From the NCBI GenBank assembly GCA_030605085.1, contig JAUWBH010000030.1, positions 1 to 42,479 of the forward strand: DNA of 42,479 nucleotides. Reading direction: 5' to 3'. How positions within the stretch are numbered: position 1 is the stretch's first letter; each line of letters begins with the position of its first letter. A program made the translations under genes and the position numbers. The DNA comes from Promethearchaeota archaeon. Lineage in GTDB: Archaea; Asgardarchaeota; Lokiarchaeia; Sigynarchaeales; SOKP01. Below the pieces are notes generated by a model. The model saw only the letters and a program-made list of their open reading frames with translations, did not search any database and was not told the origin of the DNA. Below are positions 1,486 through 31,088 of this stretch, in pieces.

Positions 1486-4400
1486 TTAAAATTCAATTCC
1501 ATTTGGACGAATGATATAAATTGTACCAAATTGATCTCCAGCTACGATTAAAATCTCCCTATTATTCACTGCGATGGAAAAGGCAGGTCCTAAAATTGGA
1601 AAGATTGCCAATTCGGCACAAGTTTCGATATCCCAGACCCTCAATGTAAAATCTGACGAAACGGAAAGGATCTTCTTTCCATTAGGTGTAAATGCACAAT
1701 CATTCACCCAATTCGAATGTCCTATAAATGTTTGAATTATAGCACCGGTCTCAACATCCCATAATTTCAATGTTTTGTCATAGGAAGCGGAAAGTATTTT
1801 CTTTCCATCCGGTGAAAACACACAAGCCCGCACGCCATCAATATGCCCTTTGAAGGTTTTTAGTTCCTTACCAGTTTTTACATCCCAGAGCTTTAATGTC
1901 ATATCAGGAGGACCAGTAAAAGGCATTCCAGAAGCGGAAATGAACTTTTGAGAAGAACCTGAGATAATTTTTTTTCCATCTGGTGAAAATATACAAGTTT
2001 TTACAATTCCAGAGTGCCCTTTGAATGTCCTGATTTCATTACCTGTTTTTACATCCCAGAGTTTCAAAGTCATATCATCTGAAGCAGATAGTACCTTTTT
2101 CCCATCGGGTGAAAACGCACAACCTTTCAGACCATCAGAATGCCCTCTAAATGTCATTAAATCTTCACCAGTTTCTACATTCCATAACTTCAATGTTTCA
2201 TCGCGTGATGCTGAAAGTACTCTCATTCCGTCAGGTGAAAATGCACAATCCCACAAACCTATAGAATGGCCTTTAAAGGTTTTAAGTTCCTCACCAGTTT
2301 TTACGTTCCAGAGTTTCAATGTCTTATCATTTGAAGCCGAAAGTATCTTTTTTCCATCAGGTGAAAATGCGAGTGCCATTACACTCGAAAAAATTCCTTT
2401 AGATATCTTGATTTCGGCACCAGGTATAACCTCCCATAGCTTCAAATTATTGTCAGAAGAAGCGGAAAGTATTTTCTTTCCATCAGGTGAAAATGCACAA
2501 GCATTCACCACATGAGAATGTCCTAGGAATTGATTGAGTTCTTTACCAGTTTTAACTTCCCATAACTTTAGTGTATTATCAAAAGAAGCAGAAATTATCT
2601 TTTTTCCGTCAGGGGAAAACGCACATGAATTCACTATATCAGAATGTCCTTGAATTCTTTTTATCTCAACCCCAGATTCAGTGTTCCAGAGCCTCAACTC
2701 ACCTTCATAGAGTTTTCCGCAAGAGGAAAGAACTATTTTCCCATCAGGTGAAAATGCACAACCCTTTACACCCGAAGAATGTCCTATAAATGTTAGAATT
2801 ATAGCACCGGTCTCAACATCCCATAATTTCAATGTTTTATCATTGGAAGCGGAAAGAACTTTCTTCCCATCAGGTGAAAATGCACAATCATGCACCCAAT
2901 GGGAATGTCCTTTGAAAGTTAGAATTTCAGAACCGGTTTCGGCGTCCCATAGCTTCAATGATTTGTCATCTGAAGCGGATAGAACCTTTTTTCCATCAGG
3001 CGAGAATGTGCAAGCATTTATCCCAAATAAATGATCTTTGAAAGTTAAAATTTCAGCACCAGTCTCAACATCCCACAGTTTCATTGTATGGTCATTTCCA
3101 CCAGAAAGAATGTTTTTTCCATCAGGGGAAAACGCACAAGCAGTTACCTCAAAAGAATGCCCTACAAATGTCTTTTTATCCTCCCCAGTTCCGACATCCC
3201 AGAGCTTCAATAACCCATCATTAGAAGCGGAAAGGATTTTCGTGCAGTCTGGCGAAAATGCACAATCATTTACCCAATCAGAATGCCCTTCGAATGTCAT
3301 AAGGCAAGGATCCTGACTTTGTGGCTTATTTAACCAATCAAACCATGGTCTTGAGTAAGTTCCTGATTTCAGAATTTTAATCCCTGCTTTATAAACCGCA
3401 GATGAGTTCGGTTGGTTAATAGCCAGTTGAACACTTAGTCGAGGATAATTTTTAAGAACATGAGATTGATTTCTTATTAAGTATGCGAATTCTTCGATTC
3501 GAGTGAGATTTGACCATAAAGCATCGTCAAGTGAAAGTGAATTGTCATAATCAGTAATAAGATCCGTTATCATTTCAGCAAGGCATTTGGCTTCAATGAA
3601 AGTGAAATCGGTAAGGATTTCTTCCAATCTTGATCTTAAATCTCTCACTTTCATTAAATTATAAACAAGTTCCGATAATTTTCGATAATTCGGAGTTTTC
3701 CTCCCGTTTCTTTGATAATAGAAATCAACACTATCGAAATAATTTGCTAAAACTCGGTGGCAGTCTTCAGCAACTTTGAATAATGAGATTTTTTCTATTA
3801 CATCGTTAAATTGGCGATGAAAAAACACTAATGTGGATGTGTGATCTACGCCTCTCGTTGTAAGATACGGCTCAAGATCAGACCGAAGTCTCGACCACAC
3901 GATCCATGGGAGGCGGGGTTCAGGTAATTTGTGATATTTGCTTTGCTCTTCTTTATACCAGTTGAAATAATCGGTATCAGAAGTCAAGACATCGAGAATT
4001 TCGTCTTCAGTTAATCCATTTCTCGCAGCAACGATATAAGATAGTACTTTTTCGACAGTTTTTTTTGTATGATTCTTGTAAAGCCGTTTGAAAAGAATTT
4101 GAATTAATCCCTCTATGTCTAATGGCAGCGTGGTATGGCTAACATAGTCGTAAGAATTCCAAGTACGCGCTTCTTCAAAAGCAAGCTTAAGGTAAAGCGG
4201 AGACCCAGATTGAGAAAATTTTTCTAATAGTCCCTTTTGTTGTTCGGCTTGAAGCTTTCTAAGGGCATTTTTAAGAAGTGTATTTAAAGCTTCATTACCC
4301 TCATTTTGAGATAAGGGTTCAAGCTTGTATAAAGATTTAGGGAGTTTTTTCTTTAGAATTTCCATTATATCTTCCGCATCGGTTGCAACCGAAACAATTA

Positions 4401-5784
4401 TTTTTACATTTTCAGGAAGTACTTTTGGCAGCCAGCCGAGACTGCGTCCCAGATCATTTTTTGATAGTTGATCTAAAGCATCAAGAATTAGAACAGCTTT
4501 ACTACCACCTTCTACGAGTTTTAACTTTTCGTTAAATGATTTAACGAGTTTGTTATATTCAAAAGGAATTTCTTCTTCTATACCTCCATATTTATTGGTG
4601 ATTTGTTCACAGATAGTCCTAAGGATCCCAATCGAACTTGAAGAGGAGACGGATGTACTGAAAAAACGCAATATGAATTCTGCGTTAATTTCTTTTTCCT
4701 TTAATAGCTCGTAGGCTTTTGCCATTAAGGCAGACTTTCCCGACCCTGGCTCTCCGAAAACCACAAATGGAGCTCTATCGTCGCTTTCTACGTAATTAAC
4801 AATTTCTTTCAAAATGGACTCTCTGCCGACAAAAACTTTTGTACGAGACTTTCCAAATTCTATGTGAACGTTAATTTCTTCGTCAAGGGCGGAAACTTCG
4901 CTCATTTCTTCTAACTCTTTTAGAATTGTCTTTGAGAGAAATTCGTAAACGTCTTTACAAAATCTTTCCAAATATTCGTTTTTCTGCTCTAAATTTCCAA
5001 GATCAACTTTATATTGATGAATATTCGATGGTAAGCGTTGAACTAATTCGGATTTCAAGTTTGAGAGATACTTTCGATTTTCACTCTCAGGTTCAATAAA
5101 AGCATCTGATTTAACACCCTCAGGTAATCCTTTTGTTTTTCTAAAAAAACAATGAACATGGGTTTCGGCGTCAGGTGCTTCGAGAGCTCCCAGTACTATT
5201 TCTTGATGAGTTGCTGAAGCGAAATATTTCACCATTTCGTTTTTTGGTAATTTAGATTTTCTTGCTACTTCTAAAAGTGTTTCTCGAATTTCTTTTTCTA
5301 TAGGTTTCCAATCGTCGTAATTTGAGTATTTTTCTCCCCGTGGTTGAAGTTCATATACTGAGGTAATAATGCCATTATCGAGTTTAACGAGCTCGTTTTC
5401 GTCGTGTTTATACCACTCTTCCACAAGAGTTTTTTCATTCTCAGAAAGATGAGTAGATATCACCTCATACTCGGTTTTAGGAATTTTAGATGGCGGAGGC
5501 GTCCATCCATACCTTTCTCCCAGTAATATTAGAAAGTTAGGACGAGGTGTGATATTTTGACATCGATTAATTTCTTCAAGGCAGGTTTGCATTGTTAATT
5601 GCTGGAGCCCAACTTCAGCTGGAATGCCCCATCTAAGATCAATAGGTTGAAATCGTGTGTTATAAGCAGCACATAACTCTTTTAATTTTGGAAATACTTT
5701 TTTTTGTAAGGCGTTTCTTTCCTCAATAAGGTCACTGAATGTAGAACTAAAAAAAACTCTAAATATTTTTGAAGTTTTAGTCAT
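1486..5784 (-). CDS. STAND NTPase with DUF4062 N-terminus and double WD40 propeller (TEP1/NPHP3/NWD1-like)
   Basis: 1432 residues. Residues ~7-100 match the DUF4062 domain (RVFFSSTFSDL..ER, then DLRWGI, then CLEEI), as in eukaryotic TEP1, NPHP3 and NWD1. A NACHT/STAND NTPase follows: P-loop GEPGSGKS (~344-351), Walker B VLILDALDQL (~431-440) and the STAND marker GSP (~527-529). A helical winged region runs to ~828. Thirteen clear WD40 repeats plus a degenerate fourteenth then run from ~829 to the end, enough for two seven-bladed propellers; one repeat has a ~15-residue insertion. STAND proteins are signalling ATPases that oligomerise when the repeat sensor binds a ligand, often in immunity or cell death. 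A sensor/defence role here is inference. The ATG at 5784 gives the full DUF4062 start. The gene stands alone, next to the remnant zone. Confidence 0.9.
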   Translation of the reverse strand: MTKTSKIFRVFFSSTFSDLIEERNALQKKVFPKLKELCAAYNTRFQPIDLRWGIPAEVGLQQLTMQTCLEEINRCQNITPRPNFLILLGERYGWTPPPSKIPKTEYEVISTHLSENEKTLVEEWYKHDENELVKLDNGIITSVYELQPRGEKYSNYDDWKPIEKEIRETLLEVARKSKLPKNEMVKYFASATHQEIVLGALEAPDAETHVHCFFRKTKGLPEGVKSDAFIEPESENRKYLSNLKSELVQRLPSNIHQYKVDLGNLEQKNEYLERFCKDVYEFLSKTILKELEEMSEVSALDEEINVHIEFGKSRTKVFVGRESILKEIVNYVESDDRAPFVVFGEPGSGKSALMAKAYELLKEKEINAEFILRFFSTSVSSSSSIGILRTICEQITNKYGGIEEEIPFEYNKLVKSFNEKLKLVEGGSKAVLILDALDQLSKNDLGRSLGWLPKVLPENVKIIVSVATDAEDIMEILKKKLPKSLYKLEPLSQNEGNEALNTLLKNALRKLQAEQQKGLLEKFSQSGSPLYLKLAFEEARTWNSYDYVSHTTLPLDIEGLIQILFKRLYKNHTKKTVEKVLSYIVAARNGLTEDEILDVLTSDTDYFNWYKEEQSKYHKLPEPRLPWIVWSRLRSDLEPYLTTRGVDHTSTLVFFHRQFNDVIEKISLFKVAEDCHRVLANYFDSVDFYYQRNGRKTPNYRKLSELVYNLMKVRDLRSRLEEILTDFTFIEAKCLAEMITDLITDYDNSLSLDDALWSNLTRIEEFAYLIRNQSHVLKNYPRLSVQLAINQPNSSAVYKAGIKILKSGTYSRPWFDWLNKPQSQDPCLMTFEGHSDWVNDCAFSPDCTKILSASNDGLLKLWDVGTGEDKKTFVGHSFEVTACAFSPDGKNILSGGNDHTMKLWDVETGAEILTFKDHLFGINACTFSPDGKKVLSASDDKSLKLWDAETGSEILTFKGHSHWVHDCAFSPDGKKVLSASNDKTLKLWDVETGAIILTFIGHSSGVKGCAFSPDGKIVLSSCGKLYEGELRLWNTESGVEIKRIQGHSDIVNSCAFSPDGKKIISASFDNTLKLWEVKTGKELNQFLGHSHVVNACAFSPDGKKILSASSDNNLKLWEVIPGAEIKISKGIFSSVMALAFSPDGKKILSASNDKTLKLWNVKTGEELKTFKGHSIGLWDCAFSPDGMRVLSASRDETLKLWNVETGEDLMTFRGHSDGLKGCAFSPDGKKVLSASDDMTLKLWDVKTGNEIRTFKGHSGIVKTCIFSPDGKKIISGSSQKFISASGMPFTGPPDMTLKLWDVKTGKELKTFKGHIDGVRACVFSPDGKKILSASYDKTLKLWDVETGAIIQTFIGHSNWVNDCAFTPNGKKILSVSSDFTLRVWDIETCAELAIFPILGPAFSIAVNNREILIVAGDQFGTIYIIRPNGIEF

Positions 5785-24475: not shown

Positions 24476-24606
24476 TCTGCAATTTATTTTTTATTTATTG
24501 AAATTTTTAAAATTCAAATTTATTTAAGAAGTAAATTGTTATTTTTCAGAGAAAAAAATTTAATGATATAAATAAAAAAATTGATTATTGGTTTAAATAC
24601 ATTTAA

Positions 24607-24990
24607 TTAAGTTAAATTTACGGATACAGACACGGCCGCGTTACATACAATAATGTTATCTGAAGTATCTCCTAGCTCTTCTATCATTATTCCCTGAGCA
24701 ACGAGTCCACCTTTTTCAACTTCAATTGATTTATCCCCAAATGGTATAGCCTTCAAAACTTTTTTTCGATCAATATTTTCAGGGAATGGGGCTCCTATTT
24801 TTACGCTTACTTTCATCCTTTGAATATCTTTTGGCTCTTTAAAGCCGCAAATGTCAGATAATCCGCACAGACAATTATTAGAAATAGCGTTTTTAATTGC
24901 TTTAATTGCTGCATTTGTACAGTCGTTATTATGTCCATGTTGGTCGACACCAAATCCAATTTGTACAACAAACCTTTTGTAATTATTCAT
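24607..24990 (-). CDS. Lin0512 family protein
   Basis: 127 residues. It starts with VVQIGFGVDQHGH, continues with CTNAAIKAIKNAI, and ends GGLVAQGIMIEELGD-SDNIIVCNAAVSV. This is the pattern of the Lin0512 family (TIGR02058), small conserved proteins of unknown function with a presumed metal-binding GxDQHGx motif. Cytosolic. A 14-bp inverted repeat 30 bases upstream of its start codon probably regulates it. Confidence 0.75.
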   Translation of the reverse strand: MNNYKRFVVQIGFGVDQHGHNNDCTNAAIKAIKNAISNNCLCGLSDICGFKEPKDIQRMKVSVKIGAPFPENIDRKKVLKAIPFGDKSIEVEKGGLVAQGIMIEELGDTSDNIIVCNAAVSVSVNLT

Positions 24991-25019
24991 CTTTCATACC
25001 GATCTTGGTAAAAATTAGC

Positions 25020-25068
25020 AAATTTTTTGAGCTATTCTTAATATATTTTAACAAAGCTCAAAAAATTT
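25020..25068. promoter_or_regulatory. 14-bp perfect inverted repeat upstream of the Lin0512 gene
   Basis: AAATTTTTTGAGCT (25020-25033) and AGCTCAAAAAATTT (25055-25068) are exact reverse complements separated by 21 nt. It lies 30-78 bases upstream of the minus-strand start at 24990. As DNA it could be a paired operator; as RNA, a long leader hairpin. Confidence 0.5.
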
Positions 25069-25333
25069 ATCATCCTTATAATTAAGAATTTGAAATTTTG
25101 GTGTTTTTTAAGTATCAATGAAATTAATTAATAAAAAAACATTAGCGGAATATTTAGACCAATACATTCATCATTTTAAAATAAATGAAATTATATAATC
25201 AAGTTGAAAAAAATAAAGTAATAACCATATATAAAGAGAATATATGTAATTTTTACAACGGTGTTTTAAAATTTCTTATAAATTATCAGAAGAACAGAAG
25301 TTAAGTATAAAGGAAGTAATAGAATATAATATA
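25069..25333. other. AT-rich intergenic stretch
   Basis: Between the inverted repeat and the next gene only a 26-codon ORF (25118-25198) is seen. A purine tract AAAGGAAG at about 25309-25316 may serve the GTG start at 25334, though the spacing is long. Confidence 0.35.
25118..25198 (+). pseudogene. 26-codon ORF, possible gene-start remnant
   Basis: Reads MKLINKKTLAEYLDQYI and stops after 26 codons. The LAEYLDQYL-like helix resembles the N-terminus of Nif3-type proteins, so it may be the 5' stub of a decayed gene, but it is too short to be sure. Confidence 0.15.
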
Positions 25334-26125
25334 GTGGAAAAAAATATAGGGATTATTCCTTTATTACGGAAAGAGGGTTTAGTAAAACGATTAGAAAGTG
25401 AAATTTTTGATAATATTAAAGATCAGGAACACAATAAAATATACCCTTGCAAAGTCGGTCTAAATGATTATAATATTGATTATGTCGCAAAGATTTGGAT
25501 GATCTTAAAAATTAGAAAGTTTGACATAGATAAAATAGTCGCAATGGGAGAGGATGTTGGAAGTATTTTACATTTAGGGATTTTACCCTACCTCACTGAC
25601 TTCTTTCATCAAATCGAGAAAGTCATATTGAGAGGATTGGATAAAAAGGGGATTAATTTTGACTGTTTTTTTGGTAGAACAATTGAAAATGAGGGCATAA
25701 ATCTAATAAGTACTGTTATAAGGTTGACACATAATCTAAAAGAATCGGGTTTTAACCCTCCTTTTATATTGATGAGCGATTTTAATACTCTTCATCGGGC
25801 TGAAGTCGGTCCTCTGATCCAGACACCAGAAGGTTATTTAATTTCAAAAAAAAGGCAAATTGAAAATATGGATGATATTTTTAAATGGATTGAACTCCTA
25901 AATGACGCAGATAAAGACAACGATCATGAACTCGTTTGTATTCCTAAATCGAAACAAAATAAACCCACTTTTAAACTTATCGAGAAAAGCCCTTTAGAAG
26001 TTACTTTTAGATATAATGGAGGCACGAATGGTAATTTAAATTATGTGATCGATATTTGCTGGTACGGAGCTCTTAAAATTGATGATCCTAATTCAATACA
26101 GCGAATTAAAATAAATTTAAATTGA
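25334..26125 (+). CDS. Conserved-looking protein of unknown function, upstream of the nuclease
   Basis: 263 residues, soluble, mixed alpha/beta. The start is GTG at 25334; no in-frame ATG gives a longer product. No motif of a known family is recognised. Visible features are a charged N-terminal helix region, a central LTHNLKESGFNPPFILMSDF segment and a C-terminal GGTNGNLNYVIDICWYGAL segment. It ends only 33 bp before the likely TTG start of the LAGLIDADG-like/nuclease protein on the same strand, so they may be one transcription unit and could work together (inference). Confidence 0.55.
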   Translation: MEKNIGIIPLLRKEGLVKRLESEIFDNIKDQEHNKIYPCKVGLNDYNIDYVAKIWMILKIRKFDIDKIVAMGEDVGSILHLGILPYLTDFFHQIEKVILRGLDKKGINFDCFFGRTIENEGINLISTVIRLTHNLKESGFNPPFILMSDFNTLHRAEVGPLIQTPEGYLISKKRQIENMDDIFKWIELLNDADKDNDHELVCIPKSKQNKPTFKLIEKSPLEVTFRYNGGTNGNLNYVIDICWYGALKIDDPNSIQRIKINLN

Positions 26126-26158
26126 GAAAATTTAAAAAAAAGTTTTGAGGATATTATT

Positions 26159-26751
26159 TTGTCTATTATTATACTTACTCCTAAAAGTATAATCTCTTCC
26201 AGGCTTGTTTATATTTAATTGATGGTTTTAAAGGTTTTAAAGAATGGAAACAACACCTAGTAAAAAAATTAAGGGAACAAAAAGAAATTACTGAAATTAA
26301 TAATGTTCTATCAGATGAGTCAAAAGAAGAATGGGTAAAAACATTAGAAAACCATATTGATGAGGTTCCAGAAGGGGAGTTTTCGAAAGAAATCAGCACC
26401 GAGCTAAAAAATATAATTGAAATTTATAGCAACCTTAAGAATATTTTTTATAGTAATAAAATTTCAAACGAAAGAAAAGATAAGCTTTTAGCGGAAATAG
26501 GTAAAAAACTCAATCCTAATTATCGACAATCTTTTGAAGATCTAAGAGACTTTCAAGCAATACACGAGGAATATACAACAAAGGGATACGAAAAGAGTTT
26601 AATTATTAAGGGAAAGAGTGTAGCTAAAAAACTTGGAAAAAAATTAGAATCAATTATAAATGAGACTTTTTTACAAGAGGTTTTAAACGAACAAAACTCT
26701 GATATAAAAATATTCAAGGAGATTTTAAGGGAAAATCTATATAAAAGTACA
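26159..26751 (+). other. Frameshifted N-terminal extension of the nuclease gene
   Basis: The reading frame of the downstream gene is open from 26185 to 26752 without a standard start codon. The residues are clearly protein-like: EEWVKTLENHIDEVPEGEF and RQSFEDLRDFQAIHEEY. A TTG at 26159-26161 with GAGG 8 nt upstream (26147-26150) starts a different frame, SIIILTPKSIISSRLVYI, which stops at 26216-26218. Adding one T to the short T-run near 26213-26215 would join the two into LVYILIDGFKGFKEW and give a protein of about 1005 residues. This segment also contains a third copy of the ~100-residue repeat of the main ORF, so it is part of the same protein. The cause could be a real frameshift or a sequencing error. 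Confidence 0.7.
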
Positions 26752-29175
26752 ATGGTTAGCATAAATGAAAAATCTAAGTTAATAAAGATTATTCAAAAGG
26801 AGCAACTTACTGAAGAAGATAAAGAAGAATTAAGACATATACTGAGCAAGCTTCCTTCTAAAGAATTTAAATCGTTATTAGGTAAAGTACCACCAGAAGT
26901 TCTAACTGCCAGTGAAGAAAGATATAAGATACCTAGTCAAGAGAAAGAGTTAATAAAACAAGAGTTTTCAAATGGAATCCCCATCCAACGGTTAAAAGAA
27001 ATAATTAGCACCCATAAAGACGAGTTCGAAGACGATTTCATTGAGAGAATTCAATCTTTTTACGATGATGTGATTACTAATAATCGACAGAGATTATTTT
27101 TAAGTTCTCGTAAGATAGATAAAATAATATCAGGATACAGGCATATGCTTTATGGTGATAACGCACTTTCTAAGAAATCCATTAGAAAATTAGAGCTTCT
27201 CATTGGAAGATCCGTTCCAATTATAGAGGATTGGCGTAAGCCTTATGAAAGACATTTATCATCGGGAGAGAAAATACAAATTTTACCTGAAGGAATTGAA
27301 TTACTCAAGTATGAAATGAAATTGGGAATTCTTATTCAGAGATTATCGAATATTATTGATAATTATAATTTAGAAGATGATTTTATTCAAAATGTTAGGC
27401 GTATTTACGAAGACGCCTTAATCTCTGGTTATGAAAATGTTAAAATTCCCATTGATAAGTTAAATGAGTTTATTAAAAACTATAGAGGTATTATATATTA
27501 TAACAATTCGACATCAAGAGATATTCTTAATAAATTGCAAATGTTGGTTGATAAACCTATTCCACATAAGATCGTTTATGGTATAAAAAAAATGGAACCT
27601 GTATTGTTAATAAAAAACGATCTCCATGCGGAATTTATTGGAACATTTATTATGAAAGGAAATGTCTACTTTAAACCGCATCATCTTACTGTAAGTTTCA
27701 ATAAAGATAGCCATCCTAAGTACATTGCTTATTTAGAATCACTCATTGCTAGTGTTTTTAAGGAAACTCCGATTTTGATTCGTGGTAGTAATGATTTCTT
27801 TTTGTCAGGAGAAGCAGTTTCTCAATATTTCAAATCTCAAGGATTATCAAATACTAATAAAAAAGTTCCATCGTGGATCAAAAAACCACTAACTTGGATT
27901 CGAGAAAATCCAGATGAATGGAGAAAAAAATATTTACCACTCGTAGTAGCTTGTCTAAAAGGCATGATAAATGCTACTGGTTGGATTGGTGTTCAAGAGA
28001 AGTGGAATCGAATACGAATTAGTTTAACGAGAAGCAATAGAACTATTATAGAAGACTTTCGCGATCTATGTACTTCTCTAGACATTAAGACGACCAAAAT
28101 TTCTGAGATCACAGATAAAAGACCAAATAGAAGTTTAATGTATCATATTAGCATTAATGCAGCAGAGCATGTTAGAAGATTTCTTATAGACATCGTTAAG
28201 CCTATGAAATGGGATTTGATAAGAGACGATTTACAGAAAATTTTAAAAAAGAAAGGCACTTCGATTGAAGATGCACTAGAAATATCTCATGAGTTAAGAG
28301 ATTTAAGAAGACAAGTTTTCAAACATCAGCAAAGATACACATTTCAATATCACCCAATCCGAATTAAACAAATTAAAAATCCTACTTTGCGAAAGCGTTT
28401 GCAAGATTATATTGAGAACATATCTTTTAAACTTTATCCTTACAACGCATTTCAAATAAAGACCAATATTAGACCGAGTAGTTTAAAACTTCGTGGTAAT
28501 TATCAAGAAAGAATAAATACGAGTTTTATTAAAGCTCATCTTGTAGATAATTTGTTAATCAACGGTAGTATTAAGAAATACTCTTACGATAGTTTACCGA
28601 GAGGTCCTTATCTTGATCTTTTAAATTTAGTTCGACAAATTTTTACCGATTTTCGAATAAAATATCGTGGCATAACGCCCCCTCATCCACCTATACTTAA
28701 AAGAATTATGATTAAACTCCCTAGCGCGAAAGCCTCTGAAATCCCTGTCTGGTCGATGTTAAAAGGTAATGAATATTGCGTCGGACACATTGATTTATTT
28801 TTAGCTGACGAAGTGATTTCTAGAAACACTTTAAGAAGCACCTTATACATAGCAGATTTAAAAGCAGATGAGACCGATATAATTAGAAGTTTACCTCAAA
28901 TAGTATCCTACGGAGTAATGTTAAAGAATCTGATTTTTAAAACATCTTCAGATTTTAAAGCTTTTGACCTAAAATGTATTATGTTTACTAAAGACGAAGT
29001 ATGGGAGTTTGAACCCGATTCTTTAAAATACGAGCTCATTAATTTTATTAAATACGCCAATTCTATTAGAAACATCCCACTGAAGAGTTTATCTTTTTCA
29101 AAAGGGCTTTCAAGAACGGATCTCTTAAAGGACATTGAAAAAGTTGTTGCTTTCCTTCAATCCTTTTTTATCTAA
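26752..29175 (+). CDS. LAGLIDADG-like domain fused to RecB/Cas4-type PD-(D/E)xK nuclease
   Basis: 807 residues from the first ATG; the true protein probably starts upstream (see 26159-26751). Two tandem ~100-residue helical repeats (~64-163 and ~181-279) share the L(I/L)K-E-x(3)-GI-IQRL-II...EDDFI pattern. Residues ~292-490 look like a two-motif LAGLIDADG fold: AEFIGTFIMKGNVY (~293-306) and LVVACLKGMINATGWIGV (~397-414), the latter after VPSWI. Both lack the catalytic acidic residue (K/N and A in place of D). The C-terminus has GHIDLF (Asp681), IADLK (Asp702, Lys704) and QIVSY (Gln716, Tyr720): the D...DxK...QxxxY set of RecB-family nucleases. I infer a DNase whose LAGLIDADG-like part only binds DNA. 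No helicase lies nearby. Confidence 0.7.
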   Translation: MVSINEKSKLIKIIQKEQLTEEDKEELRHILSKLPSKEFKSLLGKVPPEVLTASEERYKIPSQEKELIKQEFSNGIPIQRLKEIISTHKDEFEDDFIERIQSFYDDVITNNRQRLFLSSRKIDKIISGYRHMLYGDNALSKKSIRKLELLIGRSVPIIEDWRKPYERHLSSGEKIQILPEGIELLKYEMKLGILIQRLSNIIDNYNLEDDFIQNVRRIYEDALISGYENVKIPIDKLNEFIKNYRGIIYYNNSTSRDILNKLQMLVDKPIPHKIVYGIKKMEPVLLIKNDLHAEFIGTFIMKGNVYFKPHHLTVSFNKDSHPKYIAYLESLIASVFKETPILIRGSNDFFLSGEAVSQYFKSQGLSNTNKKVPSWIKKPLTWIRENPDEWRKKYLPLVVACLKGMINATGWIGVQEKWNRIRISLTRSNRTIIEDFRDLCTSLDIKTTKISEITDKRPNRSLMYHISINAAEHVRRFLIDIVKPMKWDLIRDDLQKILKKKGTSIEDALEISHELRDLRRQVFKHQQRYTFQYHPIRIKQIKNPTLRKRLQDYIENISFKLYPYNAFQIKTNIRPSSLKLRGNYQERINTSFIKAHLVDNLLINGSIKKYSYDSLPRGPYLDLLNLVRQIFTDFRIKYRGITPPHPPILKRIMIKLPSAKASEIPVWSMLKGNEYCVGHIDLFLADEVISRNTLRSTLYIADLKADETDIIRSLPQIVSYGVMLKNLIFKTSSDFKAFDLKCIMFTKDEVWEFEPDSLKYELINFIKYANSIRNIPLKSLSFSKGLSRTDLLKDIEKVVAFLQSFFI

Positions 29176-29372
29176 ACCTTTTTTTAATTCTTTTTTTTAG
29201 GATAAATTTTTCCGTGATTCTTTGAAATTATAGAGAATCCTAAAATTCTTTCTTTGGATGTCGAATAATAAATTTTTTAAGATATTTAAAACATATTTGC
29301 ATTATCCAGATAAAACTTATTGTCTTTTCCATATATTTAAAAATTTGAACAATAAAGTCAATCGCAGGTTAC

Positions 29373-31088
29373 ATGAAATTAGTAAATAAAAGAATAATTG
29401 TTAAGCTCTTAAGTTCAGAAGTCCCGTATTTTTCCATAGACGAGTTAGAAGAGATGATTGAAATTCCTCCATTAGAGATTAATTTTTCTTATGCATTTCC
29501 AGTATTTAAATTAGCAAAGCATGAAAAAAAAGATGCTAAATTTATTGCTAAAGATTTGATGAAGAAAATTGTATTACCAGATTATTTAGAAACCATTGAA
29601 GCAAGTGGAACTTATTTAAATTTTAGAGTTAAATCCTGTATTGTCTTAGGGAATGTATTTGAACTTCAAGAAGATTATGGAAAAATTCAAGAAGTTAGCG
29701 ATCAAAAAAAGACAAAACCATTAAGAATTGTGGTCGAATATCCTTCACCTAATACAAATAAGCCCCTTCATTTAGGACATATCCGTAACATGTTAATTGG
29801 GAGTACATTATCAAGTCTATTTCAGTATAAAGGACATTATGTATTTCAAGTTAATTTAAACAACGATAGAGGAATTCATATCTGTAAAAGCATGCTTGCT
29901 TACAAAAAATGGGGGAATAATGGAGACCCTATTAAAAAATCCGATCATTATGTAGGTGATTTTTATGTTAAATATAATCAAGAAGAAGAAAGAGACAAGA
30001 ACTTGCTTCAAGAAGCAAATAAGTTATTGAAACTTTGGGAACAAAAAGATCCAGAGACGCGAAAGCTATGGAAAAAAATGACCAGATGGGCTTTAGATGG
30101 TTTTAGAGAGACTTACAGAAAATTCAATATCTCGTTTGATAAGGAATATTTTGAATCTAATTTATATAAAGAAGGAAAAGACATAATTTTGAAGAATGTA
30201 GAGAAGGGTATCCTAAATAAGACGGAAGAAGGTGCCGTAATTGCCCATTTAAAAGAAAAGTATAAATTATCAGATAAAATATTGTTAAGAAGCAATGGAA
30301 CATCCATATATATTACTCAAGACATCTTTTTGGCTTATTTAAAAAAGAAAGATTTCAATTACGATAGATCAATTTACATAGTTGGCAACGAACAAAATTT
30401 GTATTTTAAGCAATTATTTGCGGTTTTAGACCTCATAGGTTTTAAGGAAGATAAATATCACCTCTCTTACGGAATGATTAGCCTACCAGAAGGAAGAATG
30501 AAGAGTAGGGAAGGTTCTATAGTAGACGCGGACGATATAATTGCTAAAATGCAAAATCTTGCATATCAAGAAGTAAACAAAAGATATCCTGAGCTCTCAG
30601 AAAAAGAAAAGACGAGAAGAGCAAAAATTATAGGAAACGCAGCGCTCAGATTTTTTATTTTGAAATTTAACCCAAAATCAGATTTTGTGTTTAATCCAAA
30701 AGAGAGCATCGCCTTTGAGGGTGAGACGGGATCATATGTGCAATACACATATACAAGAATAGAGTCTATAATAACCAAGTCAAAAGAAACAATTGGATTA
30801 AATGTAAATTTTGAATTATTGATTCACGATAAAGAAATTAAAATAATAAACCAATTAAATATTTTTCCAGAAATAGTTGATCTTGCTGTAGGTACATATG
30901 GGATTCATTTAATCCCTCAATATCTTTTAACCTTATGTCAATTATTTAATTCGTTTTATAGCACTTGTCCAGTAATTTCAGATAATAAGGAATTAGAACG
31001 AGCAAGATTATTACTAATCAGATGCGTTCAAATTGTTATAAAAATAGGACTAAAGATTCTAGGAATAGAAACATTAGATAACATGTAA
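29373..31088 (+). CDS. argS: Arginyl-tRNA synthetase
   Basis: 571 residues, a class I synthetase. The HIGH motif is HLGH (~133-136) in SPNTNKPLHLGHIRN, which is ArgRS-typical. The KMSKS-like loop is GRMKSREGS, followed by DADDII, and the anticodon-binding tail has the family ending RARLLLIRCVQIVIKIGLKILGIE. The N-terminal Add1-like domain (~1-95) is short. It charges tRNA-Arg in the cytosol. It lies 23 bp before an agmatinase-type gene on the same strand, tying translation and arginine breakdown together in location, though not necessarily in function. Confidence 0.93.
   Translation: MKLVNKRIIVKLLSSEVPYFSIDELEEMIEIPPLEINFSYAFPVFKLAKHEKKDAKFIAKDLMKKIVLPDYLETIEASGTYLNFRVKSCIVLGNVFELQEDYGKIQEVSDQKKTKPLRIVVEYPSPNTNKPLHLGHIRNMLIGSTLSSLFQYKGHYVFQVNLNNDRGIHICKSMLAYKKWGNNGDPIKKSDHYVGDFYVKYNQEEERDKNLLQEANKLLKLWEQKDPETRKLWKKMTRWALDGFRETYRKFNISFDKEYFESNLYKEGKDIILKNVEKGILNKTEEGAVIAHLKEKYKLSDKILLRSNGTSIYITQDIFLAYLKKKDFNYDRSIYIVGNEQNLYFKQLFAVLDLIGFKEDKYHLSYGMISLPEGRMKSREGSIVDADDIIAKMQNLAYQEVNKRYPELSEKEKTRRAKIIGNAALRFFILKFNPKSDFVFNPKESIAFEGETGSYVQYTYTRIESIITKSKETIGLNVNFELLIHDKEIKIINQLNIFPEIVDLAVGTYGIHLIPQYLLTLCQLFNSFYSTCPVISDNKELERARLLLIRCVQIVIKIGLKILGIETLDNM

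Follow-up and report, generated by a model that had tools for sequence, protein, structure and literature searches.

A LAGLIDADG-fold domain without its catalytic acids, joined to a Cas4/RecB-like nuclease domain, in an apparent insertion at the argS gene of a Lokiarchaeia genome

What does a protein do that combines two nuclease-type domains, one of them lacking the acids with which it would cut, and why does its gene lie just before that of an arginyl-tRNA synthetase? These questions are raised by an open reading frame (ORF) of 807 amino acids (aa) at 26752..29175 (forward strand) of contig JAUWBH010000030.1 from a Promethearchaeota archaeon, of which we analysed positions 1 to 42,479 (hereafter the window, 42,479 nucleotides). 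The gene seems to lie inside a 4,255-bp insertion in argS, as judged from comparison with orthologous loci. We think it probable, although well short of certain, that it encodes the nuclease of a free-standing homing element which exchanges one end of the gene it targets for an end of its own, with a dead LAGLIDADG domain as the reader of DNA and a borrowed domain as the cutter.

Two nuclease-type domains in one protein

Alignment, structure prediction and fold comparison confirmed that a LAGLIDADG fold without its own acids and a PD-(D/E)xK nuclease domain are encoded in one ORF. Residues 286-498 (27607..28245, +) form a two-unit LAGLIDADG domain, as indicated by Pfam (LAGLIDADG_3, residues 398-478 of the 807-aa ORF, E = 1.6e-6), the predicted model, Foldseek and alignment. 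The alignment places K302 (27655-27657, +) and T409 (27976-27978, +) at the positions of the first and second catalytic Asp, and the domain is therefore that of a LAGLIDADG-fold protein, not of a LAGLIDADG nuclease. Its best Foldseek match was an intein, and two structures of WhiA (PDB 3hyi and 3hyj) also matched (E of about 2e-3). WhiA is a bacterial regulator with a helix-turn-helix (HTH) domain and no nuclease, in which a non-cutting LAGLIDADG fold has been kept for DNA binding; the window protein resembles it in having this fold, presumably without cutting, but differs in the nuclease domain attached. A helical region precedes the LAGLIDADG domain in the predicted model (residues 56-280; 26917..27591, +), with two HTH-like repeats by eye and self-similar stretches when compared with itself.

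Residues 530-799 (28339..29148, +) contain the E, H, D, (D/E)xK and Q..Y motifs of a PD-(D/E)xK nuclease (E663, H679, D681, D702, K704, Q716 and Y720), and the closest folds are those of the Cas4, RecB and MGME1 nucleases. The original prediction, made from the letters alone, had described a LAGLIDADG-like region without metal-binding Asp and a complete PD-(D/E)xK set at the C terminus, and both descriptions held, the first under alignment, structure prediction and fold search and the second in the motif residues. No family of PHROGs, PADLOC or NCBIfam came close to its cut-off.

The same PD-(D/E)xK domain is encoded in many genomes by a stand-alone gene of 237-245 aa, which lies in recurring surroundings (10 loci: L022, L024, L026, L029, L030, L032-L035 and L067). 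Two members of this group matched no NCBIfam model, and the stand-alone Lokiarchaea gene is an unnamed nuclease. PDB sequence searches with alignments of the stand-alone nuclease (A4) and with alignment A3 gave nothing convincing; one entry for V-ATPase subunit A, with the length of an intein, matched weakly (E = 0.09). The window domain thus has its motifs in common with Cas4, RecB, MGME1 and the stand-alone nuclease, but unlike them it is fused behind a putative DNA reader.

An apparent insertion in argS

Gene order and the junction place the putative insertion at 25190..29444 (4,255 bp), with a G+C content of 0.295 compared with 0.322 for the window. To its left lie, on the forward strand, what appears to be the native argS promoter region, now stranded (24988..25117, identified by its match to orthologous upstream regions), and a remnant consisting of native argS codons 1-24 (25118..25189, identified by comparison with orthologs). 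At its right end the insertion would carry replacement codons 1-24 (29373..29444, +), identical to the remnant in 9 of 24 residues, which begin the working arginyl-tRNA synthetase gene (29373..31088, +; 571 aa), native from about codon 25. The insertion also holds a 263-aa orphan ORF (25334..26125, +), which has no Pfam family and matched nothing in 227 genomes at E <= 1e-10. These genomes belong to the phylum of G001, a Lokiarchaeota metagenome-assembled genome. The argS of the window is up to 70% identical to those of genomes in this phylum, which makes its source look Lokiarchaea-like.

The case for an insertion rests on gene order, promoter and orthologs. The left neighbour (24607..24990, -; Lin0512-like by eye) has a homolog directly before argS in L131, L133 and L159, with 204-224 bp between the two genes compared with 4.4 kb in the window, as would be expected of empty sites. 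In comparisons with the upstream regions of 23 orthologs, the left upstream region outscored all 100 shuffles in 14 and the region before the working argS did so in 5; the left region scored above the right one in 21 of the 23. Mean identity to the 23 orthologs is 33% for the replaced 24 codons and 42% for the remnant, compared with 55% between orthologs; the remnant is closer than the replacement to 20 of the 23 and less close in 1. Codons 25-60 are normal (62% identity to orthologs, 66% between orthologs), and if codon 25 of the right-hand copy is made to follow the remnant directly, the result is an uninterrupted, in-frame and ortholog-like argS start.

LAGLIDADG enzymes often ride in group I introns or inteins, and the best structural match of the LAGLIDADG domain is itself an intein, so the locus might be read as the relic of such an intervening sequence. 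We regard this as highly improbable, as no Rfam family was found at E <= 1 within 24500-29600, and argS has its own start past the insertion as well as a duplicated, diverged 5' end, neither of which splicing would need.

Host-gene ends are duplicated at other nuclease loci

Many nuclease copies end at contig edges; of 73 nuclease loci, 50 had 600 bp or more to either side, and for these the left and right flanks (2.5 kb) were compared with each other, a direct match that scored 35 bits or more at the protein level being taken as a duplication. Such duplications were found at 12 of 50 loci. As a control, 249 further ORFs, each of 300 aa or longer, were taken from the window and the fetched loci, and 10 of them gave such a match (Fisher p = 2.5e-5). 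Inverted matches were absent (0 of 50), and pairs of flanks from different loci matched in 7 of 2,450 cases. By inspection, eight of the 12 are host-gene ends. Three were rejected as gene ends, consisting of beta-helix repeats by eye (L116), two HAD-like genes by eye (L100) and acidic repeats (L066), and L114 was left open. Ten host-gene-end loci were accepted in all, namely these eight together with L094 and the window, which fall under the cut and were accepted by inspection.

The nucleases at these loci are of several kinds, as are the genes whose ends are duplicated (named here by Pfam unless stated). PD-(D/E)xK nucleases accompany the end of an Nre gene (L126) and the 5' end of a gene for a CxxCxxCC protein (L073), and HNH nucleases, one of them HNH_3, accompany two gene ends without a Pfam family in L093. 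LAGLIDADG nucleases with both acids are found with genes for a metallo-beta-lactamase fold (L112), an FAD-dependent oxidoreductase (L110) and an AAA ATPase (L102), and a LAGLIDADG_3 nuclease with UvrC (L094). In L086, the host gene encodes a pyridine nucleotide-disulphide oxidoreductase (dihydrolipoamide dehydrogenase by eye) and the nuclease is not classed by Pfam. Shorter direct duplications flank small LAGLIDADG ORFs with both acids in L103 (3707-3745 and 4679-4717) and L114 (3677-3754 and 4946-5023); they are not clearly coding, and both loci stand outside the ten because ARAGORN found no tRNA gene in these duplications.

Paired ends have a synonymous divergence (dS) of 0.8 to saturated and a nonsynonymous divergence (dN) of 0.03-0.49. 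They thus differ more synonymously than in protein, which argues for a diverged donor and not for fresh local duplications.

For the gene of L086, in genome G118, 19 ortholog loci were fetched, and in 16 of these the gene end had the expected length. For the five nearest relatives, DNA identity is 87-90% for the far remnant, 82-85% for the rest of the gene and 77-78% for the element-borne end, and the remnant is the closer of the two ends in 13 of the 16. In L210, L214 and L216, the far flank directly follows the gene, and these loci represent empty sites for the L086 element. L211 (genome G112) has about 1.1 kb of other DNA at this site, the start of which resembles that of the element, perhaps a decayed or different occupant.

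A further possibility is that the rearrangement of argS has nothing to do with the nuclease, foreign argS DNA having recombined into the 5' end and the nuclease having arrived separately. The duplicated argS end is indeed short and weak, and other repeats occur in these genomes, as the 10 of 249 control ORFs illustrate. However, nine further nuclease loci are arranged in this way, one of them with empty sites in relatives, and this speaks against two unrelated events, which we consider very unlikely. On the same evidence, together with the argS insertion, the proposal in the original prediction that the gene might belong to a mobile element is supported.

The catalytic acids are absent from the aligned LAGLIDADG domains joined to this nuclease

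A homology search in which 7,993 candidates were scored returned 19 proteins including the query. Seven relatives (P0002-P0008) are 42-53% identical to the window protein over most of its length, P0009 is 43% identical over the first two thirds only, and ten share only part of it. A family profile matched at E <= 1e-8 in at least 86 of the 227 genomes, a lower bound since at most four candidates per genome were scored; most matches covered one half or the other, and G001 alone gave a near-full-length match among the candidates scored. The closest full-length relative with DNA, L001, sits at a contig end. The family alignment (A2) found no locus in viral contigs.

Our alignment comprised 46 LAGLIDADG domains, taken both from fetched loci and from the proteins that the search returned. 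Both Asp are absent in all 13 that carry this PD-(D/E)xK domain, the first being replaced by K, R, S, A or Q and the second by T, A, S, G or H. P0009 is also acid-less (S and G) despite another C terminus. Among the other 32, which were not screened one by one for other nuclease domains, 29 keep both Asp and the remaining three, which are truncated, keep Asp at the position covered. Two further proteins outside the 13 (L080 and L119), missed by the LAGLIDADG profile and aligned to P0012, are acid-less and carry the nuclease; one damaged LAGLIDADG match (G152:C130) lay outside the fetched set. In a tree of the 42 longer rows, all 14 acid-less rows fall on one side of a branch (support 95/98), and no independent losses of Asp were found. 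Loss of the acids is thus tied, by this alignment and tree, to fusion with the nuclease, but as one event.

Across all pairs of the eight rows of the window group, identity is 0.60 in the LAGLIDADG part and 0.65 in the nuclease part. The former is nearly as conserved as the latter, which speaks for a kept function, and DNA reading would be the obvious one. The C terminus of P0009, which comprises a weak match to the DUF4379 zinc finger and a part common to P0013 that is nuclease-like by eye, is perhaps a swapped cutter, and a dead LAGLIDADG half joined to an end shared with P0013 fits a portable DNA-reading module.

The window gene might instead be an ordinary LAGLIDADG homing gene in decay that lost its acids after fixation and lies beside argS by chance. 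Homing genes commonly degenerate after fixation (PMC13405050), the frame upstream of 26752 is without a start, and in comparisons of the window protein with its seven relatives conservation is lower over the LAGLIDADG part than over the nuclease part (identity 0.48 compared with 0.57). Decay is nevertheless unlikely in our view, given that the relatives are full-length at 42-53% identity, that their PD-(D/E)xK residues are intact and almost invariant and that both Asp are gone in 13 of 13 aligned members with the nuclease.

Different nucleases carry the same leaders

The first 45 residues of the window protein (26752..26886, +) form a leader that recurs at about 90% identity in eight otherwise different proteins (P0011 and P0013-P0019). 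Beyond it, these are mostly unlike the window protein and each other, although P0014 and P0016 are similar throughout and P0013 and P0017 over their first 180-210 residues. Pfam assigns PDDEXK_1 to P0011 and LAGLIDADG to P0017, and by eye P0014 and P0016 are HNH and P0015 is GIY-YIG nucleases. A search with residues 1-48 returned the same nine proteins and none further (9 of 22 candidates), and the leader alignment (A1) found no locus in genome contigs or viral contigs.

All nine leader proteins begin at the same Met; elsewhere this position is mostly occupied by a different residue, L092 and L094 having Met by eye. The frame preceding the window ORF (26203..26751, +) is open but without ATG, GTG or TTG, and it shows homology to the leader domain found N-terminally in other nuclease genes. 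When this upstream frame is included, the leader occurs at 23 places in 14 of the 227 genomes. Of these places, 21 lie in open frames of more than 500 codons, and one genome, G116, has five copies of the leader. In well-aligned pairs from G116 and G111, leader dS is 0.10-0.46 and most C termini are unrelated; L081 and L082 share a C terminus, and pairs with L083 align over divergent parts with dS >1. A second leader type (MKAYTNVSRKTV...) is common, at 67-78% identity, to an HNH_3 protein (L093:1867-4281) and two dead-LAGLIDADG/PD-(D/E)xK proteins (L007:433-3213 and L010:382-3078).

At six loci (L066, L068, L072, L079, L081 and L089), leader or LAGLIDADG genes are preceded by a gene for a DUF87/HerA/TrwB-like ATPase, for which the Pfam matches are weak. 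Homologs of this ATPase were found in 38 of the 227 genomes. The next ORF has an acidic N terminus at 21 of 46 ATPase loci inspected, compared with a background of 18 of 180 ORFs of at least 300 aa that includes some from the same loci; another ORF follows at 15, for three of which (L089, L171 and L172) the wrong frame was picked, by eye, and none was found at 10. A role of the ATPase in DNA transfer is a guess. Separately, we observed that the ATPase (in the six loci above and L169-L208), which by eye has membrane parts in some loci, often precedes very long genes with acidic N termini, encoding up to 2,437 aa; the two genes together look like a Lokiarchaea system not described before.

A shared N terminus with a variable nuclease C terminus, a trait of polymorphic toxins, is present here, the nuclease types being assigned partly by eye. 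The nuclease might accordingly belong to a toxin or defence system, with a shared N-terminal module, interchangeable nuclease ends and delivery by the HerA/VirD4-like ATPase, the window copy being an orphan cassette. The nine proteins with a common leader that mostly differ beyond it, the ATPase at six loci and the excess of acidic N termini beside it would all suit such a system. Against it stand the kinds of nuclease, which are those of homing enzymes (LAGLIDADG and HNH_3 by Pfam, GIY-YIG and Vsr-like by eye), and the host-gene ends duplicated around the elements. Moreover, there was no PADLOC match, and no immunity-like gene was recognised beside the copies inspected, by eye and without a family search. 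We give this reading little credence, and the genome-defence role suggested in the original prediction found no backing: the best PADLOC match had E = 0.17, and the neighbours look like housekeeping genes.

Elsewhere in the window, 1486-5784 (-) encodes a 1,432-aa protein with, by eye, an NTPase part and many WD40-type repeats.

Discussion

On the reading that we favour, that of gene-end replacement by a homing element, the LAGLIDADG domain would no longer cut and would act as a DNA reader, and the C-terminal Cas4/RecB-like PD-(D/E)xK domain, kin to the stand-alone Lokiarchaea nuclease, would cut. The element would have invaded argS about 24 codons from its start, and we predict that the target lies in argS near codon 24. 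The nuclease would cleave an uninterrupted gene at the junction, and repair from an element-bearing copy would then copy the element together with its replacement end. As the element brings its own upstream region and 24 diverged codons, argS would remain functional in the carrier while the original site is gone, and the diverged end, no longer a target, would confer immunity. We infer DNA binding, cleavage, target, repair and immunity alike from sequence comparison.

Several observations weigh against this reading. The flank match in the window, over 24 codons, scores a weak 26.7 bits (E = 0.46), below the 35-bit cut. Among the 30 argS loci fetched, the Lin0512-like gene lies no more than about 225 bp from argS in only 3; in L136 another gene lies between this gene and argS, and in the other 26, with flanks of 1.5 kb, it was not found. 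Counting the inspected duplications alone, the contrast with uninspected controls is 8 of 50 against 10 of 249 (p = 0.004), and the 50 loci are not all independent, as they include near-identical copies in different genomes and L093 contributes two. Neither flank was matched in 12 of the 16 relatives of the L086 case. Since loss of the Asp is a single event on the tree, its correlation with the nuclease is not replicated. The start position of the window nuclease gene is unclear. Finally, Cas4/RecB-type domains are mostly end-processing nucleases, and a site-specific double-strand cut by this one is therefore unproven.

The closest parallel is found in fungal mitochondria, where mobile ORFs (mORFs) carry foreign gene ends in atp6 of Allomyces and in atp6, atp9, cox2 and nad3 of Glomus (PMC3630166). 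There, the inserted end is joined to the gene, and the native end lies beyond the nuclease and resembles that of relatives (PMC3630166). Like mORFs, the elements described here would consist of a free-standing homing-type nuclease near a gene end that brings its own diverged end and leaves the native one beyond the nuclease, with the remnant resembling close relatives more than the inserted end does. Unlike mORFs, they lie in an archaeal chromosome, they affect 5' ends (argS and L073) as well as 3' ends, whereas the ends described for mORFs are C termini (PMC3630166), and they include a dead-LAGLIDADG/PD-(D/E)xK nuclease and a leader common to different nucleases. Searches that covered only openly licensed papers in PubMed Central turned up no report of such a replacement of gene ends in archaea.

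Fusions of I-SceI* with PvuII were reportedly built by Fonfara in 2012. They join an inactivated LAGLIDADG enzyme to a restriction nuclease (PMC3857828), and MegaTevs are likewise engineered fusions of a LAGLIDADG enzyme with another nuclease (PMC5751168). The window protein would share with both the use of a LAGLIDADG reader joined to another nuclease as cutter. Both are man-made, however; PvuII is a restriction enzyme, whereas the cutter of the window is of the Cas4/RecB type, and the LAGLIDADG part of MegaTevs also cuts (PMC5751168), whereas that of the window is without acids. The novelty claimed by the original prediction for this arrangement therefore stands for nature but not overall, as the engineered I-SceI*-PvuII enzyme precedes it (PMC3857828).

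Other mobile elements of Asgard archaea include HeimM2, for which a homing-type gene was proposed to serve site-specific integration, and aloposons, which encode proteins of 3,000-6,000 aa (PMC8813620). The element of the window would share with both its Asgard host but those are described as inserting at tRNA or rRNA genes (PMC8813620). Identity with aloposons was considered and set aside.

More tentatively, the window gene may represent a wider class of target-and-replace homing elements of Lokiarchaea, a possibility that we raise without expecting it to hold in full. Such elements would place exchangeable cutters (LAGLIDADG, HNH, GIY-YIG, Vsr-like or Cas4-like) or a dead LAGLIDADG reader behind common leaders and would invade the ends of essential genes with a diverged replacement. 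Full-length versions would be coupled to the HerA/VirD4-like ATPase, which may move DNA between cells. The whole would amount to a cleave-and-rescue system of natural origin, carried by kin of those archaea that gave rise to eukaryotes.

If our reading is true, nature has built the two-part enzyme that engineers made, an inactive LAGLIDADG reader with another cutter, and homing elements of archaeal chromosomes can live in an essential gene by means of a diverged replacement end, a strategy previously known from fungal mitochondria. Each interrupted gene would then provide a ready-made pair of nuclease and predicted target, and the chimeric gene ends left by such elements could mislead phylogenies of Asgard genes.

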